From positions 1 through 34,842 of the forward strand of contig MFER01000002.1 in NCBI GenBank assembly GCA_001777655.1: a stretch of DNA of 34,842 nt, given 5' to 3'. The notes beneath the pieces were generated by a model, which saw only the letters and a list, made by a program, of their open reading frames with translations, had not been told where the DNA came from and searched no databases. Source of the DNA: Candidatus Doudnabacteria bacterium RIFCSPHIGHO2_02_FULL_43_13b. Lineage in GTDB: Bacteria; Patescibacteriota; Doudnabacteria; UBA920; O2-02-FULL-48-8. The position numbers were made by a program, and so were the translations under genes. How positions within the stretch are numbered: the first letter of the stretch is position 1; every line of letters begins with the position of its first letter. Shown piece after piece: positions 14,125 to 32,209 of this stretch.

Positions 14125-15162
14125 TTATGAAATAATCTTTTTATAGGCGCTCAAATAACCCTTCGTCATCTGGACGGCAGAAAAATTCTCCCTCGCATAG
14201 TTTGAGCACGCTGCACGATTAATCCTGTCGATTTGATCAATGCTCTGGATTATTTTCTCCTCATTGTCGCAAATAAACCCGGTTTCACCATGCTTAATTA
14301 ATTCGGGCACCGAACCTCGATTCGTCGCAATTACCGGTGTGCCGCAAACCAAACTTTCTACGAAAAAAAGTCCGAAAGGCTCTTCCCACTGGATTAGGGC
14401 GAGCAAGGCTTTGGCGTTACTCAAAAGTTCGACTTTCCCCTGATGATCAACTTCGCCAATAAACTTAATTTGCTTGCCGTCTACCAAGGGTTGAATTTGT
14501 TCTTCGAAGTAACGTCTATCTACCGCGTCTACTTTAGCTGCCATGATTAATTTCACATTGGCCGCTTTCGCAGCCATGATCGCCTGAAGTGGCCCTTTTT
14601 CTGGCGACATCCTGCCCAAAAAAGCAAAATAATCGCCTTGGGGCTTTTCTACAAACGGAAACCTATCAATTTCTATGCCATTGTAAACATTGGCGACAAA
14701 ATTTAACTCCGGCATGGGCTTGCGTTGACTTAAACTGATGCTGATGAAGTTGGATTTCTTATACATACTGTAAATAAAATTTTGGTAATCATCATTAAGT
14801 GGCCCATGCAGAGTTGTGACTATTGGCGTTTTAATTAACTGTTCTAAACTTAACAATCGCCAGCCAACGTGATTATGGATGACATCGAAATTTTCTTGGG
14901 CTAACTTCGCAGCAATTTTGCCGATCGAGGTGACGATCACCGCGTTGCCATATTGTGCATTTTTTAAATTCATCGACCTTAAGGACCTAGGCAGAGTTTC
15001 CACCAGTTTTGCTTTTGTCTTGGATCCTGCCGGAGCAAACAAGACCACTTCGTGTCCAAGGGTCACTAAATTTTCTGTAATATTTGACACGACCAATTCA
15101 GTGCCGCCGTATTTTGCCGGTGGGACGGATTCGGAGAATGGCGAGACGATTGCTATTTTCAT
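14125..15162 (-). CDS. GT4-family glycosyltransferase
   Basis: PPAKYGGTELVVSNITENLVTLGHEVVLFAPAGS, FLGRMSPEKGPLQAIMAAK, EPFGLFFVESLVCGTPVIATNRGSVPELIKHGETGFI. Confidence 0.93.
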   Translation of the reverse strand: MKIAIVSPFSESVPPAKYGGTELVVSNITENLVTLGHEVVLFAPAGSKTKAKLVETLPRSLRSMNLKNAQYGNAVIVTSIGKIAAKLAQENFDVIHNHVGWRLLSLEQLIKTPIVTTLHGPLNDDYQNFIYSMYKKSNFISISLSQRKPMPELNFVANVYNGIEIDRFPFVEKPQGDYFAFLGRMSPEKGPLQAIMAAKAANVKLIMAAKVDAVDRRYFEEQIQPLVDGKQIKFIGEVDHQGKVELLSNAKALLALIQWEEPFGLFFVESLVCGTPVIATNRGSVPELIKHGETGFICDNEEKIIQSIDQIDRINRAACSNYARENFSAVQMTKGYLSAYKKIIS

Positions 15163-16637
15163 TCGTTTAAGGCTAATTTAAGAAAATCGATAGCCCATTT
15201 GTAGACGTTATTTTCCTGCAAGATGGTTTTCATTTGGTCGTTGCGCGCCTTTTTCATCTCTGGCTTCATTGTCAGAGCTTCATAAAGCGCGTTTGAGGAT
15301 CCTTCAGTGTCAAAAGGATTGATCAACATTGATTCTTTCAGATCCTTGGCGGCGCCCGTAAATTTAGAAAGCAGGAGTACTCCTTTTTTTGAATCAATGC
15401 AGATTAAATATTCCTTGGCTACCAAATTCATTCCATCATCTAAAGCTGTCACTAAGCAGGCGTCAGCAAGTCGATAATAGCTAAAAAGATCCTCTCTGGA
15501 AACTCCGTGTTTAACTAAATAAACCGGCTTCCAGTTTTTAGTCCCATGCTTACTGTTAATTCTATCGGCTAAGTGGTTGATTTGACTATTATAAGATTTA
15601 TATTCACTGATCCTCGTGCGGCTAGGCACCCCAATTGAAACGAAAATAATATTTTTGCGAAACTGCTTATACTTATCCAAAAACCGGTCGATAATTTTTA
15701 GTCTTTCAAGGATCCCTTTGGTATAATCAACCCGTTCAGCCGAAATCACCAATTTTTCGTTTTTCCAAGGGATGCCTAATTTCTTTTTAACAACGGTCGG
15801 GTTCATTTTTTTACTTGTTTTCAATTTATCGCTGATGCGGTCAAAATCAACACCAGCGGGGAGGGATGCCAACCTTGTGGTATGGTTCTTATAAACCGCC
15901 GATCTCGGTTCATAATCCACGATCACCTCTAGATCGCTGCGAACGCATTTCAGAAAGTTTTCTACATGGTACCCGCGGTGGAACCCGATAAAATCTGAAG
16001 CCAACAGGCCTTCCAACATTTCTTTTCTCCATGGATTAATTCGGAAAATTTCATAGGTAGGCCATGGAATATGCCAAAAGACCCCGATTTGCAAATCAGG
16101 TCTTTGCTTTTTTAGCATTTTAGCTAGCAACGAAAACTGATAATCATGTATCCAAACAAACGCTTTTTTATTTTTAACCTCTTCCAGAATCGCATCAGCA
16201 AATTTTCTGTTGACCGCAACATACTGCTTCCACCATGAAGCGTGAAATTTTGGTTTTATAAATACGGCGTGAAAAAGCGGCCAGATGGTTTGATTCGATA
16301 CGCCGTAATAAAAGCCTTTTTGTTCAGCATCCGACAAAAAAATTCTCTTCAATGTATACGACGGGTTCCAAGGAGGTACGCTGATCTTTCCTTCTTTATC
16401 AACCATTAGGTGATCGGCATCCCCGCTCGAAACTGCAAACATTGTCCCGCCGGTCTTTCTAAGAATTGAGTCAATTAGCGTATTCACTCCCCCGCCTATG
16501 GCTTTTTCAACTTTAATCTCTTTGATACTTCCTTCCGTGGTCGTGTGAATGTAAGGCTCTTTTTGGGCAACAACAATCATCTGACGATCAGCGAAAGTCT
16601 TTTTAATGTATCTGATAAAATTTTGTTCAGTAATCAT
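15159..16637 (-). CDS. otsA: Trehalose-6-phosphate synthase-like glycosyltransferase (GT20)
   Basis: VWIHDYQFSLLAKMLKKQRPDLQIGVFWHIPWPTYEIFR, DFIGFHRGYHVENFLKCV, SAERVDYTKGILERLKI, YLICIDSKKGVLLLSKFTGAAKDLKESMLINPFD. Confidence 0.88.
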   Translation of the reverse strand: MITEQNFIRYIKKTFADRQMIVVAQKEPYIHTTTEGSIKEIKVEKAIGGGVNTLIDSILRKTGGTMFAVSSGDADHLMVDKEGKISVPPWNPSYTLKRIFLSDAEQKGFYYGVSNQTIWPLFHAVFIKPKFHASWWKQYVAVNRKFADAILEEVKNKKAFVWIHDYQFSLLAKMLKKQRPDLQIGVFWHIPWPTYEIFRINPWRKEMLEGLLASDFIGFHRGYHVENFLKCVRSDLEVIVDYEPRSAVYKNHTTRLASLPAGVDFDRISDKLKTSKKMNPTVVKKKLGIPWKNEKLVISAERVDYTKGILERLKIIDRFLDKYKQFRKNIIFVSIGVPSRTRISEYKSYNSQINHLADRINSKHGTKNWKPVYLVKHGVSREDLFSYYRLADACLVTALDDGMNLVAKEYLICIDSKKGVLLLSKFTGAAKDLKESMLINPFDTEGSSNALYEALTMKPEMKKARNDQMKTILQENNVYKWAIDFLKLALNE

Positions 16638-17716
16638 CGGAGTCTTTGGATTTTTTTATAAATCTTAACGTAATTTTCTGTCATGGCGTCGCTGCTGAAG
16701 TATTTTTCTACTCGCCTCCGACAGTCCTGCCTGGAAATTTTTTTTATTTGGCGAATTTTCTGAGACATCTCGGAGGTATCCTTCACTAAAAAACCAGTTT
16801 TTCCATGTTTGATCAGTTCCGGTGCGGCACCTGCGCGAAACGATATAACTGGCGTTCCGGTTGCCATCGATTCCGTCATAACCAGGCCAAATGGTTCGTT
16901 CCATTTTATGGGATTTAGAAAGCCTATTGCATTGCCCATAAGGTGGTTTTTCAATTTGTCATCGAGCTCTTTAATATGCAAAATTTGTTTGCCGTCAACC
17001 AATGGTTTGATCTGGGCTTTATAGTAGGCGTAGTCTTCCGGTTCTCCTTTTGGGTTAAGCTTACCAGCGAGTATTAGGTTAACTTTTGCTTTTTTCGCCG
17101 CCATGACAGCCTCCCTTACCCCTTTATCTGGGTTGAACCTCCCGACCCAGATAAAGTAATTTTTTGGGTTAGGATTAAATTTGTAAATTTTAGTGTCGAT
17201 TCCGTTATAAACTGTTCCGAGCCAGTTTAAATTTTTGCCCCCCTGTCGTTGGGCGTTTGAAATGGAAACATAATTTAAGTCTTTGTATTTTTGAAAAACC
17301 CTGTGGCGATCTTGCGTTTTACTCGAGAATGGGTAGGGAAAATGCAAAGTAAATACAATCTTGTCTTTGATGTATCTGGCTAATGGCAATGCAAGGTAAT
17401 CAGAGGCTTTATTTAAATGAACATGGATTATATCAAATTTTTTTTCAAGATCAAACGCGGCCGTTAGATTTAATAAAGGATAAGTAATATTAGTCCATGG
17501 AATTCCCGCATCAACCAGAGGGCGAGGATAGACAGAAATTAAATTAGCCGATGTCCTGGCAGTACCCGCAGCGAACAATGTTACATTATGCCCTCTCTTT
17601 ATCAATCCTTCAGTCAAATTAAACAAGACTCTTTCAGTCCCGCCGTATCTTTTTGGCGGAATGTTTTCCCAAAGTGGAGCAATCTGAGCTATTTTCAAAA
17701 TTTTATGGTTACTCAT
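16634..17716 (-). CDS. GT4-family glycosyltransferase (paralogue of 14125..15162)
   Basis: PPKRYGGTERVLFNLTEGLIKRGHNVTLFAAGTART, WVGRFNPDKGVREAVMAAKKAKV, EPFGLVMTESMATGTPVISFRAGAAPELIKHGKTGFLV. Confidence 0.93.
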   Translation of the reverse strand: MSNHKILKIAQIAPLWENIPPKRYGGTERVLFNLTEGLIKRGHNVTLFAAGTARTSANLISVYPRPLVDAGIPWTNITYPLLNLTAAFDLEKKFDIIHVHLNKASDYLALPLARYIKDKIVFTLHFPYPFSSKTQDRHRVFQKYKDLNYVSISNAQRQGGKNLNWLGTVYNGIDTKIYKFNPNPKNYFIWVGRFNPDKGVREAVMAAKKAKVNLILAGKLNPKGEPEDYAYYKAQIKPLVDGKQILHIKELDDKLKNHLMGNAIGFLNPIKWNEPFGLVMTESMATGTPVISFRAGAAPELIKHGKTGFLVKDTSEMSQKIRQIKKISRQDCRRRVEKYFSSDAMTENYVKIYKKIQRLR

Positions 17717-17722
17717 ATTTCT

Positions 17723-17797
17723 TGGCTGGGGAGGAAGGATTCGAACCTTCGAATGACGGATTCAGAGTCCGTTGCCTTACCACTTGGCTACTCCCCA
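17723..17797 (-). tRNA. tRNA-Gln(CUG), CCA encoded
   Basis: Reverse strand TGGGGAGTAGCCAAGTGGTAAGGCAACGGACTCTGAATCCGTCATTCGAAGGTTCGAATCCTTCCTCCCCAGCCA. Acceptor TGGGGAG/CTCCCCA, anticodon stem ACGGA/TCCGT with loop CTCTGAA, T-arm GGTTCGAATCC. Confidence 0.96.
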
Positions 17798-17837: not shown

Positions 17838-17868
17838 TTGACGTAGTGTAATTTTTTTGCGATATTAT
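17838..17868 (+). promoter_or_regulatory. Sigma70-like promoter for the putative ncRNA
   Basis: TTGACG (17838-17843) and an AT-rich -10 region GATATTATAA (17861-17870), spacer 17-19 depending on register. Confidence 0.5.
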
Positions 17869-17874
17869 AACCGA

Positions 17875-18218
17875 ATTGGAAAGAGGAATTGAGTGTGCGT
17901 AAGTTAAGGGTTTTACTGCCTCGTTTTCCGCACGACGGCGGTGAGACACATCAAGCTTTCTATCACAGATGGCTCAGACCCATCAAGTCAGCACCGGCTC
18001 ATAACCTAATGCTGGCGAATCCGTAAGGTAAGTTGGACTAGATAGAAGCTTGGTACTTTATCTTGCGCCGAGGACGGAAGGGGTTAGCCTGGCAGAGCGC
18101 CAAAGTGGCTGCCTCATGATGTTTCCAGTGCAGCCCGCCCGGCGCCGTTTGGGCTGACCCCGACCTCCTTGATTTTTTTGCAAACGAGTCTTGATCTTTC
18201 AGACTCGTTTTTTTTCTT
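17875..18218 (+). ncRNA. Putative long structured ncRNA, family unassigned
   Basis: No convincing ORF. Nested complementary segments: AAGCTTTCTATC/GATAGAAGCTT (17953-17964/18041-18051), GGGGTTAGCC/GGCTGACCCC (18080-18089/18152-18161), GCGCC/GGCGC (18097-18101/18141-18145), GGCTGC/GCAGCC (18107-18112/18130-18135), GTGCG/CGCAC (17895-17899/17929-17933). Ends in a strong intrinsic terminator. Confidence 0.72.
18182..18218 (+). terminator. Intrinsic terminator of the putative ncRNA
   Basis: AAACGAGTC ... GACTCGTTT stem followed by TTTTTCTT. Confidence 0.85.
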
Positions 18219-18921
18219 ATTTAAAAACTGAATATTTAATCAGGGCCAAGAGAGATTCTACTTGCCCTTTCAGATTCATGTGCTTTCCTTCTTCAGAGCT
18301 TCTCGGTTTATAAGAAACCGGGACTTCAATTATCTTAAAACCAGCTTTGGCGATCCGCGCGGTCACTTCAGGTTCAAAGCCAAACCGTTTCGACTCTAAT
18401 CTTTGCAAAAATGAGTTTAACACTTCCCGATCAAACGCTTTATAGCACGTCATCAGATCGGTAAGATCAAGTCCGGTCAAAGCATTACCTAGTCTCGTAA
18501 ATAATTTGTTAAATAAACTATGCCAAAAACCCAAGCCAGGGGAGGAAGCCAGATATCTGGAACCGTAAACAACTTTAGCTGATTGCTCCAAGATTGGACG
18601 AATAACCTTGTGAAGTTCCTGCGGGTTGTATTCGGAGTCGCCATCTTGGATAACCACGATATCACCTCGGGCAACCTCAAAACCTTTCTTTAACGCCGCT
18701 CCCTTGCCCTGGTTCGATGCCAGCGTTAACAGTTTGATTGCGGGATGATTTAGTTTCAAAAGCAGTTCGCTCGTGCCATCCGTGGAGTGATCGTCTACAA
18801 TTATAATTTCTTTTTCGATATTAAAAGTATTGGCCAGGATAACCTGGTCAATTATGTCTTTTATCGTGTTAATTTCGTTGTATACGGGGATAACAACGCT
18901 GATTTTTTTATATTCAGTCAC
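18217..18921 (-). CDS. GT2-family glycosyltransferase (dolichyl-phosphate mannosyltransferase-like)
   Basis: SVVIPVYNEINTIKDIIDQV, EIIIVDDHSTDGTSELL, NQGKGAALKKGFEVARGDIVVIQDGDSEYNPQEL. Confidence 0.94.
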   Translation of the reverse strand: MTEYKKISVVIPVYNEINTIKDIIDQVILANTFNIEKEIIIVDDHSTDGTSELLLKLNHPAIKLLTLASNQGKGAALKKGFEVARGDIVVIQDGDSEYNPQELHKVIRPILEQSAKVVYGSRYLASSPGLGFWHSLFNKLFTRLGNALTGLDLTDLMTCYKAFDREVLNSFLQRLESKRFGFEPEVTARIAKAGFKIIEVPVSYKPRSSEEGKHMNLKGQVESLLALIKYSVFK

Positions 18922-21096: not shown

Positions 21097-21516
21097 ATGC
21101 AAATGCTGATGCAGCCTTTGCCTGCGCTGGCGATGGCTCCGATCCTCATCGACCGTCAGCAATGTGAAGATGACTTCACCCCTCGTCGTAACGTAACCTG
21201 CGCCGTTGATTTCATCATCAGCGATAACGGCCTGATCTGTCCTCGGGTTGTGCTTTACTCCCCTCATTTCGGCTCGACAACGATTCTGTTCACGGACGGC
21301 TTTCGAAGCGACGAAGTCGCGGAATTACGCGGGAGCAACGCCAGGGTCAGCTTCGAACGAGGTGAACCCGGCTGCCCTGAAGCGTACGTTTCTGTCCTCT
21401 GCGGCCGTCGACGCTTCGAACAAATGGTCTTCGACCACGACGTTCGGTTTTGGTTCCGCGAGCGACACGACTGGGAGCCCGTGCCGGCTTCACCTAACGA
21501 AGGAATTTTTCTCTAA
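21097..21516 (+). CDS. Orphan hypothetical protein (139 aa, lysine-free)
   Basis: AAGGAGG Shine-Dalgarno upstream, own promoter and terminator. GC-richer than surroundings; no family recognised. Confidence 0.75.
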   Translation: MQMLMQPLPALAMAPILIDRQQCEDDFTPRRNVTCAVDFIISDNGLICPRVVLYSPHFGSTTILFTDGFRSDEVAELRGSNARVSFERGEPGCPEAYVSVLCGRRRFEQMVFDHDVRFWFRERHDWEPVPASPNEGIFL

Positions 21517-27910: not shown

Positions 27911-27925
27911 AGCGGTTTTTTTTAA
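27898..27925 (+). terminator. Intrinsic terminator, possibly bidirectional
   Basis: AAACCGC-ctaaa-GCGGTTT followed by TTTTT; A-run upstream gives T-run on the minus strand. Confidence 0.8.
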
Positions 27926-28842
27926 CGTCGGCGTCTTTGGTCGAAATTATACCAGACCAAGAGCATGGGACTGGCGATAAAAATCGAAGAATAAGTTCCA
28001 GCCACAATTCCCACCAGCAACGCTAATACGAAATAACGGATTGATTCGCCACCAAACAACAGCAATGAAGTTAAAACAAAAATCACAGTTAAGGACGTGT
28101 TGATAGATCGAATCAGGGTTTGATTAATACTGTTATTAATAATTTCAGCCAGGCTATCCCCGGTTCGTAGTCGTAAATTTTCCCGAATTCGGTCGAATAC
28201 GACAATCGTGTCGTGCACGGAAAAACCTAAAACCGTCAAAAGAGCAGTGACGAACAAACTGTCTATCTCTACACCTTTGAAACGGCCCAGGATCGCGAAG
28301 AAACCGATCACAATCAGTAAATCATGGAGCAGAGCAATAATCGCGGCGACACCAAACCGCCAAGAGGAAACCGGTTTCGTCACTTTACGAAAAGCATAAG
28401 CGATATAAAGAATAATCCCAAGAGAAACTAAGATCAACTGGACAATCGCACCTGATTTTAGTTCTTTGCCGATGATTGGGCCGATCGACGTGTATTGTTC
28501 TTCGGAAACTGATCCAAACTTATCGCTTAAGGCACCCAGCATGGCTTGGTGCCGGTCGTTTTCCAAAGGTCCGGTTCGAATAATTACTGAGCGCTCCCCT
28601 GTCGGTTGAATATGGCTGTTGGAAATATTCGATTGATCTAAAACGGCTTGAATCTCATTTAAAGCAGGAACGTTTTCGGCAAACTGAACCTGCGTGAGTG
28701 TCCCGCCTTTAAAATCAATCCCCAAATTCAGACCGAAAAGTACCAGCGCCACAATCCCCGCAATTAATAATACCGCTGACACCATAAACCAAAATTTGTA
28801 GTATTTGATGATATTAAGCATCGAAGTTGTATTACTGGGCAT
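27922..28842 (-). CDS. secF: Protein translocase subunit SecF
   Basis: LGIDFKGGTLTQVQF, SVHDTIVVFDRIRENLR, SINQTLIRSINTSLTV, GTYSSIFIASPMLL. Confidence 0.95.
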   Translation of the reverse strand: MPSNTTSMLNIIKYYKFWFMVSAVLLIAGIVALVLFGLNLGIDFKGGTLTQVQFAENVPALNEIQAVLDQSNISNSHIQPTGERSVIIRTGPLENDRHQAMLGALSDKFGSVSEEQYTSIGPIIGKELKSGAIVQLILVSLGIILYIAYAFRKVTKPVSSWRFGVAAIIALLHDLLIVIGFFAILGRFKGVEIDSLFVTALLTVLGFSVHDTIVVFDRIRENLRLRTGDSLAEIINNSINQTLIRSINTSLTVIFVLTSLLLFGGESIRYFVLALLVGIVAGTYSSIFIASPMLLVWYNFDQRRRR

Positions 28843-30184
28843 GTTTTTCCTCTGACATAGTTTTTACTCCGTACAACCAGTGATGAACCAAAATGTTGTG
28901 CCCGACCAATAGGCGCAAAAAAGTCCTGGTGATGGTGATTGCGGTAAACATCGAAACAATGATGCCCAAACTTAGGGTAACGGCAAATCCCCGGATGATA
29001 CTCGAGCCAAAGTATCCTAAAATAAAAGTTGTAATCAAACTGGAAAAATTCGAATCCCGCACCGAAAGCCAGGCCCGTTTAAATCCTTCTTCAACCGCTT
29101 GATCTAAGGTTTTCCCTTTTCGTAATTCTTCTTTCATGCGCTCAAAAATTAAAATATTAGCATCCACGGCCATACCGACGGAAAGAATAAAACCGGCGAT
29201 CCCTGCTAAGCTTAAGGTAATTCCGAACAATTTAAATATGGCTAAACTTAAGAATGTATAAATTGTCAAAGCTAAAACCGCGAGTAATCCCGGCAGCCGG
29301 TAATAAATAATCATAAACAACGCGACAATCGCAAAACCGATCAACCCCGCAGCCACGCTTTTTTGCACGGAAGCCAGACCTAAAGTTGCGCCGATGTTTT
29401 GCTGTTGGATCAATTTGATCGGCACCGGCAGGGCTCCTGAATTTAAACGGGTCACCAATTCCTTCGCCTCGGGAACCGTAAACTGGCCTGTGATGACTGC
29501 TTTACCATCTGTGATCGCGTTTTGCACGGTCGGAGCAGACAAGACTTGTCCGTCCAAAAAAATTGCCACTAGTTTGCCGACATTTCTCGTGGTAATATCA
29601 GCGAACAGTTTGGTCCCTTCCGCGTCGAATTGGAGCGTGATTTGCGGCACGCCGGTTTGCGGACTGAATTCCAAAATCGCGCGCTTAAACTGTTTTCCAG
29701 TCAAACCCGTAGTCATAAAGGCCTGATCGGCAGTTATACTAATCTGTCCGTTCTCATCAGGAATGACGGTTGGATTGGGATTTTCTTCTCGAAACTCCAA
29801 AAACGGAGTTTGACCAATCAATTTGATAGCTTCATTGATATCTTTCACGCCGGGCAACTCGATGATGATCCGATTATCCCCCGATAGCTGCACCACCGGT
29901 TCGGAAACACCAAAACTGTTCACGCGCCGTTCAATTACGTCTCTGGCAGAATTCATGGCGTCAGCTCTGGCCTCTTGTGGAATATCTTTTAAGTTTCCTT
30001 CATAAACCAAATGGGTGCCGCCCTGCAAATCCAAACCCAACTTAAGATTATATACCTTTTCGTAATTGATTTTTACTGGTTTCAGCGTAATTTTACTGCC
30101 TACCGGCAATACTAAATAAACCGCCCCCGCGGTCAGTAACAAAATAATTAAAAATTTAAAATAGAGGCCTTTTTTACGCATCAC
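28832..30184 (-). CDS. secD: Protein translocase subunit SecD
   Basis: LGLDLQGGTHLVYE, VQLSGDNRIIIELPGVKD, GMAVDANILIFERMKEELRKGKTLDQAVEEGFKRAW. Confidence 0.96.
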   Translation of the reverse strand: MMRKKGLYFKFLIILLLTAGAVYLVLPVGSKITLKPVKINYEKVYNLKLGLDLQGGTHLVYEGNLKDIPQEARADAMNSARDVIERRVNSFGVSEPVVQLSGDNRIIIELPGVKDINEAIKLIGQTPFLEFREENPNPTVIPDENGQISITADQAFMTTGLTGKQFKRAILEFSPQTGVPQITLQFDAEGTKLFADITTRNVGKLVAIFLDGQVLSAPTVQNAITDGKAVITGQFTVPEAKELVTRLNSGALPVPIKLIQQQNIGATLGLASVQKSVAAGLIGFAIVALFMIIYYRLPGLLAVLALTIYTFLSLAIFKLFGITLSLAGIAGFILSVGMAVDANILIFERMKEELRKGKTLDQAVEEGFKRAWLSVRDSNFSSLITTFILGYFGSSIIRGFAVTLSLGIIVSMFTAITITRTFLRLLVGHNILVHHWLYGVKTMSEEKHAQ

Positions 30185-31154: not shown

Positions 31155-32102
31155 TTATTTATCCCAAGCAAATCCACGGCCAAAATGTCCCCATTGAGAA
31201 GTTTGGGCGAATATCGCCTTGTCTAATTTTAACAGCATTTTAATCCCCTTTGGAGTTAAATCATAATTAGTCGGGACTGGCACTATGATACTATCTAGTA
31301 TTATAGTACTCATAACTGGATTAGGTTTGCCAATCGCATAAGCAAGTTTCACCAGCGCTTCTTTAGCGTGATTTTTTTTAATTAAGTCAATCGCTATTTT
31401 CCGAGCCATATAAGCCCCGGACCGATCCACTTTGGTGTAATCTTTCCCAGAAAATGACCCGCCGCCGATTGATACATTCGGACCATAACTGTCCATCGCG
31501 ATTTTCCGACCAGAGATGCCGGAGTCGGCATCGAACCCGCCGATCCGCCACTCTCCGGCCGGGTTGACCAAATATTCTTTAGCTAGCACGAATTGCTTTA
31601 CAAGCTTAAGTAATTCATCTGATTTGGTATTTTGGAATGAAGCCACAACAGTCTGAATTTTCTTCGTCTCGATATCCACTGTTATCTGAACCTTGCCGTC
31701 AACCAGGAATTTTTGATATATGTTTTTACAAAGATTCCTCGCCAGTTCGTATTCGAGCGGCATCAAACTTGGCGTTTCGTGGCAAGCGAATCCGACCATG
31801 ATGCCCTGATCCCCTGCCCCGCCCGCATCAACCCCGTGAGCAATTTCTGGACTTTGGCGGGTCGCAAAAACATTCACTTGAAAATTAGCCCCTACAATTA
31901 AGTGGACTAATTTTTCGATATCAACTTGACCCTTGCTGGTAATTTCACCGCTAACCGTGATGTGACCGTGTCCGCCCATGACCTCAACAGCAACTCTGGA
32001 ATCAGGGTCTTGTTTGAGATATTCATCCAGGATCGAGTCGGCGATAAAATCACAAACTTTATCAGGATGCTTAGGCGTTACAAATTCTGCAGTCTTGATC
32101 AT
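31155..32102 (-). CDS. metK: S-adenosylmethionine synthetase, compact (315 aa)
   Basis: HPDKVCDFIADSILDEYLKQDP, GVDAGGAGDQGIMVGFACHETPSLMP, NPAGEWRIGGFDADSGISGRKIAMDSYGPNVSIGGGSFSGKDYTKVDRSGAYMARKIA. Confidence 0.95.
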   Translation of the reverse strand: MIKTAEFVTPKHPDKVCDFIADSILDEYLKQDPDSRVAVEVMGGHGHITVSGEITSKGQVDIEKLVHLIVGANFQVNVFATRQSPEIAHGVDAGGAGDQGIMVGFACHETPSLMPLEYELARNLCKNIYQKFLVDGKVQITVDIETKKIQTVVASFQNTKSDELLKLVKQFVLAKEYLVNPAGEWRIGGFDADSGISGRKIAMDSYGPNVSIGGGSFSGKDYTKVDRSGAYMARKIAIDLIKKNHAKEALVKLAYAIGKPNPVMSTIILDSIIVPVPTNYDLTPKGIKMLLKLDKAIFAQTSQWGHFGRGFAWDK

Positions 32103-32130: not shown

Positions 32131-32209
32131 CCAGGAAGTGAAAATTTGATGCCAATTTCGCTACTCGAAATTGGCTAATCGCTGAGCGAATCAAATTTTC
32201 ACTTCCTGG
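32131..32209. repeat. 79-bp Y-shaped perfect inverted-repeat element
   Basis: Outer arms CCAGGAAGTGAAAATTTGAT / ATCAAATTTTCACTTCCTGG (20 bp, perfect); inside are GCCAATTTCG-ctact-CGAAATTGGC (10 bp, perfect), TAA, and TCGCT-g-AGCGA (5 bp, perfect). Confidence 0.93.

Follow-up and report, generated by a model that had tools for sequence, protein, structure and literature searches.

GC-rich intergenic regions have been used as a signature to find structured RNAs (PMC6429828), and the large, structured orphan noncoding RNAs described from such regions of bacterial genomes (GC-IGR orphan ncRNAs; PMC6429828, PMC8632094) are the closest published counterparts of the locus that we analyzed in a stretch of 34,842 nucleotides from Candidatus Doudnabacteria bacterium RIFCSPHIGHO2_02_FULL_43_13b (contig MFER01000002.1, hereafter the window). 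Like these orphan ncRNAs, the candidate RNA unit occupies a long, GC-rich and protein-free intergenic region of a compact genome, its 53% G+C against 43% for the window fitting the GC-rich signature, and it combines a strong multi-helix fold with the lack of a family match. However, where the GC-IGR orphan ncRNAs with a consensus are backed by several representatives and by covariation, the present unit is a single sequence.

Some likeness to housekeeping RNAs is also seen. The tmRNA (RF00023) and class A RNase P RNA (RF00010) are, like the unit, about 350 nt long and respectively multi-domain and multi-helix, but neither covariance model matches the unit, ARAGORN calls no tmRNA with a tag ORF there, and the genome encodes both RNAs elsewhere (RNase P RNA at G000:C14:5217-5594, 126.9 bits; tmRNA at G000:C1:6800-7182, 116.7 bits). 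Bacterial SRP RNA (RF00169, RF01854) shares a long hairpin, and the CGGAAGG of the unit resembles its tetraloop region; yet the models give no match to E=10, a regex search of the window gives no S-domain core, and GAGGACGGAAGG was rejected as an SRP tetraloop, the SRP stem being unable to form around GGAA. Similarly, 6S RNA (RF00013) recalls the long irregular hairpin that we call domain 2, but 6S RNA has a large central bubble whereas domain 2 has small internal loops only, and its model gives no match to E=10. Neither the SRP nor the 6S models match elsewhere in the genome.

Beyond these families, the Rfam scan that the earlier note had suggested yielded tRNA-Gln as the sole match of the whole window at the gathering cut-off (Rfam 15), and with permissive filters at E<=10 the RNA region gave only snoRNA-like, viral, and plastid noise, the best sub-threshold match (E 0.54) lying on the opposite strand. 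The absence of RNase P, tmRNA, and SRP signatures reported in that note is thus borne out. Of the two options that it had left, a known but unrecognized Rfam class fails, since the scan to E=10 returned noise only, and a lineage-specific new RNA survives, the unit being absent from Rfam and from all relatives searched. Two further ideas were discarded: a derivation from a tRNA D-arm (TAGCCTGGCAGAGCGCC), for which the short matches in relatives fall outside tRNA genes, and an anti-Shine-Dalgarno mimicry by ACCUCCUU (about 18163-18170), which is the core of the 16S tail as read in a relative (G004) but is paired inside domain 2, in a window whose genes rarely carry Shine-Dalgarno sites.

The unit lies on the + strand in a 419-bp gap between tRNA-Gln(CTG) (17723-17797, -) and a GT2 gene (18217-18921, -), and the helices, promoter, and terminator first read there were all found again in the 17875-18215 region, at good coordinates (table 1). 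The -10 hexamer GATATT (17861-17866) is separated from TTGACG by a 17-nt spacer and preceded by TG. With 9 of 12 consensus positions matched in a consensus scan, the elements of the sigma70-like promoter are present as previously described, although their function is less assured: an 801-base scan gave 3 promoter-like sites against 0.8 expected, and a real promoter is plausible, not proven. The terminator and its T-run are likewise present (18182-18215; p=0.90 in the predicted fold), and their omission from the consensus scan list is explained by a loop larger than the 8-nt limit of that scan. This terminator sits between the convergent RNA unit and GT2 gene, and the U7 tract upstream of it may be a first, earlier intrinsic terminator. 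No co-directional gene lies directly downstream, GT2 being convergent; the next + strand gene, hppA (19001, +), starts 785 nt past the terminator, and GT2 lies entirely within this interval, in antisense. As read from the sequence, the unit thus has what a stand-alone structured ncRNA should have in terms of layout, namely its own promoter, an intrinsic terminator, and no gene of the same orientation immediately after it.

Table 1. Coordinates (in the window) of the candidate RNA unit and its predicted features.
Feature	Position	Strand	Description
Candidate RNA unit	17875-18215	+	Compact: promoter, two RNA domains, U7 tract, terminator hairpin with U8
Sigma70-like promoter (putative)	17838-17870	+	-35 TTGACG, 17838-17843; -10 region GATATTATAA, 17861-17870
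5' leader, largely unpaired	17875-17896	+	Predicted fold; approximate start, inferred from promoter spacing
Domain 1	17897-18068	+	Closed by GCGUAAG/CUUGCGC, then UAAGG/CUUUA; predicted fold
Domain 1 side hairpin, 15 bp	17910-17947	+	GUUUUACUGCC-UCGU / ACGA-GGCGGUGAGAC; G-U pairs; p 0.98-1.00
Domain 1 long stem	17950-17964/18041-18054	+	AUCAAGCUU-CUAUC / GAUAG-AAGCUUGGU; p 0.87-1.00
Domain 2, long irregular hairpin	18069-18171	+	CGAGGA.GG..GGGGUUAGCCUGG / UUGGGCUGACCCC..CC.UCCUUG; predicted fold
U7 tract	18173-18179	+	Immediately 3' of domain 2
Terminator hairpin	18182-18190 / 18202-18210	+	AAACGAGTC / GACTCGTTT; T-run after it, up to about 18215
ORF, 43 codons	GTG 17895 to 18026	+	VRKLRVLLPRFPHDGG...NLMLANP; AGAGGA seven bases before

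In the predicted fold, the helices group into two independently stable domains. Within the first, the long stem, which includes the AAGCTTTCTATC / GATAGAAGCTT pairing with one base bulged (17953-17964 / 18041-18051), encloses three hairpins (17968-17984, 17987-18016, and 18020-18037), so that the 17950-18054 segment is modeled as a cloverleaf-like four-way junction. The second domain adjoins the first without a linker and progresses inward from an outer CGAGGA/UCCUUG pairing to a 13-bp helix, then to GCGCC/GGCGC (18097-18101 / 18141-18145) and GGCUGC/GCAGCC (18107-18112 / 18130-18135; GGCTGC in DNA), with the GGGGTTAGCC / GGCTGACCCC helix at 18080-18089 / 18152-18161. The 12/11-nt, 10-bp, GCGCC/GGCGC, and GGCTGC/GCAGCC helices of the earlier note are therefore all recovered, the main helices having ensemble pairing probabilities of 0.87-1.00; weaker spots are the third junction arm (0.63) and a GG/CC pair of the second arm (0.55).

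This fold is more stable than nucleotide composition would predict. The minimum free energy of the 347-nt unit is -138.3 kcal/mol (z -5.69); dinucleotide shuffles average -106.6 +/- 5.6, and none of 100 folds as well. Each domain is also exceptional when taken alone (z -4.94 for domain 1 and -5.31 for domain 2, with 0/200 shuffles as stable in either case), and such a stability beyond that of shuffled sequences is another mark of a stand-alone structured ncRNA. The - strand folds at -119.3 kcal/mol, which makes the + strand 19 kcal/mol stabler, as expected, given its G-U pairs, if the + strand RNA is the functional one, and the better-folding strand is also the one that carries the promoter and the terminator. 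However, in a regression on G+C across the window, the RNA region ranks among the top stretches rather than first, several others being nearly equal or stronger, and fold strength is on this account supportive but, alone, neither unique nor decisive.

The distribution of the unit is extremely narrow. A blastn search against 60 relatives gave chance matches of 14-39 nt only, and a single-sequence covariance model of the RNA (R1; 277 positions, 97 pairs) matched nothing but itself across 49 genomes of the order or class and across 380 genomes of the phylum, searches of more than 40 genomes having been run with stricter filters that a very divergent homolog could escape. R1 also found nothing at E<=10 in the 800 kb searched of G004, a relative whose genome is a single contig. 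Among the strong folds examined in a structure scan of G004 for an unlinked counterpart are tRNA genes and large hairpins as well as a group I intron (RF00028, 57.9 bits; L182:5666-5897), and none of the nine listed shares the architecture of the unit. When the GT2 protein served as query against the GTDB r220 contigs, no close relative of the organism emerged. As far as these collections show, the RNA appears to be restricted to one genus or its immediate relatives.

The same junction can nonetheless be followed in other genomes, as the earlier note had advised. GT2 orthologs with 59-64% identity adjoin tRNA-Gln(CTG) in three genomes of the same family (G003, G008, and G004), and the unit is absent from all three: the gap of G003 spans some 150 bp or more and that of G008 about 30 bp, and that of G004 is occupied by an ORF resembling, by eye, a C39-type peptidase. 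That the RNA is missing at the junction of three relatives implies that the tRNA-Gln/GT2 neighborhood predates the RNA there. From these comparisons, the simplest history would be a gain of the RNA at this junction in the lineage of the organism, the alternative, a loss in several relatives, being the less simple of the two.

Other features of the window may be mentioned in their own right. On the other side of tRNA-Gln, the 14125-17716 region holds two glycosyltransferase-like ORFs around a gene of the GT20 (trehalose-6-phosphate synthase) family. Between hppA and a tRNA-thiouridylase gene, a stretch of 53% G+C, with neither an Rfam match nor a phage DNA match, carries an orphan 139-aa ORF (21097-21516, +) that has a strong AAGGAGGA site, a rarity in this window, where sites of this kind are missing from most genes. 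Finally, a perfect 20-nt inverted repeat (CCAGGAAGTGAAAATTTGAT / ATCAAATTTTCACTTCCTGG, 39-nt spacer; 32131-32209) forms a strong hairpin on both strands just upstream of a metK-like ORF (31155-32102, -).

Taken together, these observations make it probable that the unit is a genuine transcribed structured RNA, and its description as an orphan structured RNA gene, with no known family or relative in the collections searched, is credible. Transcription would start at its own promoter and stop at the intrinsic terminator; the resulting transcript, about 305-340 nt long, would fold into the cloverleaf-like domain 1 and the long-hairpin domain 2. A predicted promoter and terminator of its own, together with the lack of a gene in the same orientation immediately downstream, make it unlikely that the unit is a cis-acting leader; and as base-pairing sRNAs typically lack extensive self-structure (PMC6429828), the extensive self-structure seen here argues against a classical base-pairing sRNA. 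With both disfavored, we lean toward a self-structured RNA that would be transcribed, act in trans, and most likely serve as a scaffold to which one protein or several would bind. More tentatively, it might represent an undescribed class, a large two-domain bacterial ncRNA born or acquired in a single small-genome lineage and forming an RNA-protein particle. Two points weigh against a scaffold: a lack of homologs among 49 genomes of the order or class and 380 of the phylum is unusual for an important role, and the fold is a prediction resting on one sequence.

Among the competing explanations, the one that survives best, albeit an unlikely one, is an RNA element, mobile or of recent insertion, or the remnant of one, equipped with its own promoter and terminator and devoid of host function. 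It would account for the short gaps without RNA in G003 and G008, for the peptidase-like ORF in G004, for a G+C content above that of the surroundings, and for the lack of any relative at the same site. Yet neither direct repeats at the flanks nor inverted repeats at the termini mark an insertion around the RNA, which is single copy in the genome and has no meaningful match in phage and plasmid collections, six exact-match probes of IMG/VR being likewise empty.

Considerably less probable is a ligand-sensing leader or attenuator whose terminator would gate read-through into RNA antisense to GT2 or toward hppA. The large size and many helices of the structure, the intrinsic terminator at its end, and hppA as the next + strand gene would suit this role, and other bacteria have antisense RNAs under riboswitch control; however, the distance to hppA and the intervening antisense GT2 speak against it, as do a predicted fold without antiterminator pairing and the lack of an Rfam riboswitch match.

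A short mRNA translated from the 43-codon GTG ORF, the only notable ORF of the unit, is a still more remote prospect. Its AGAGGA has a Shine-Dalgarno-like spacing, but such a ribosome-binding site is missing from most genes of the window, 99.4% of 43-codon pieces taken from these genes have a higher codon score than the ORF, the ORF has neither a Pfam match nor a significant phage match, and domain 2 would be left unexplained. A decayed protein or pseudogene was also discarded, since six-frame translations of the unit with stops masked gave no Pfam family above the cut-off and the codon usage of this ORF is unlike that of coding sequence. The unit is noncoding. Last, a strongly divergent RNase P, tmRNA, SRP, or 6S RNA, to which the size range and the otherwise undetected SRP and 6S RNAs of the genome might point, is largely refuted and barely credible given the RNase P and tmRNA genes found elsewhere, the lack of SRP or 6S matches at E=10, and the undetected M domain of Ffh, the RNA-binding domain of the SRP protein, without which no SRP RNA is expected in this genome.

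The apparent absence of the SRP extends beyond the source organism. Neither the small nor the large SRP RNA (RF00169, RF01854) was detected in any of 14 genomes of the order (G000-G009 and G014-G017), nor was the Ffh M domain (PF02978) in the same 14, source organism included, when the same Pfam search was positive in 14/14 control genomes. In the single contig of G004, a six-frame search for the P-loop motif of SRP GTPases found neither Ffh nor FtsY, its matches being only an ABC-type ATPase and a PilB-like ATPase (named by eye). This pattern suggests that the SRP pathway was possibly lost in the whole bacterial class, of which a short literature search turned up no report, and this absence may matter more than the RNA unit itself. 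SecD/SecF-like ORFs (named by eye) lie in the window at 27922-30184.

As for the trans-acting structured RNA that we favor, if real, it would mean that a structured RNA of 300 nt is kept in a 0.78-Mb genome under compactness pressure while being absent from genomes of the same family. It would then offer a test case for the origin or acquisition of large structured RNAs, and its sequence and fold are a ready query for metagenomic searches.
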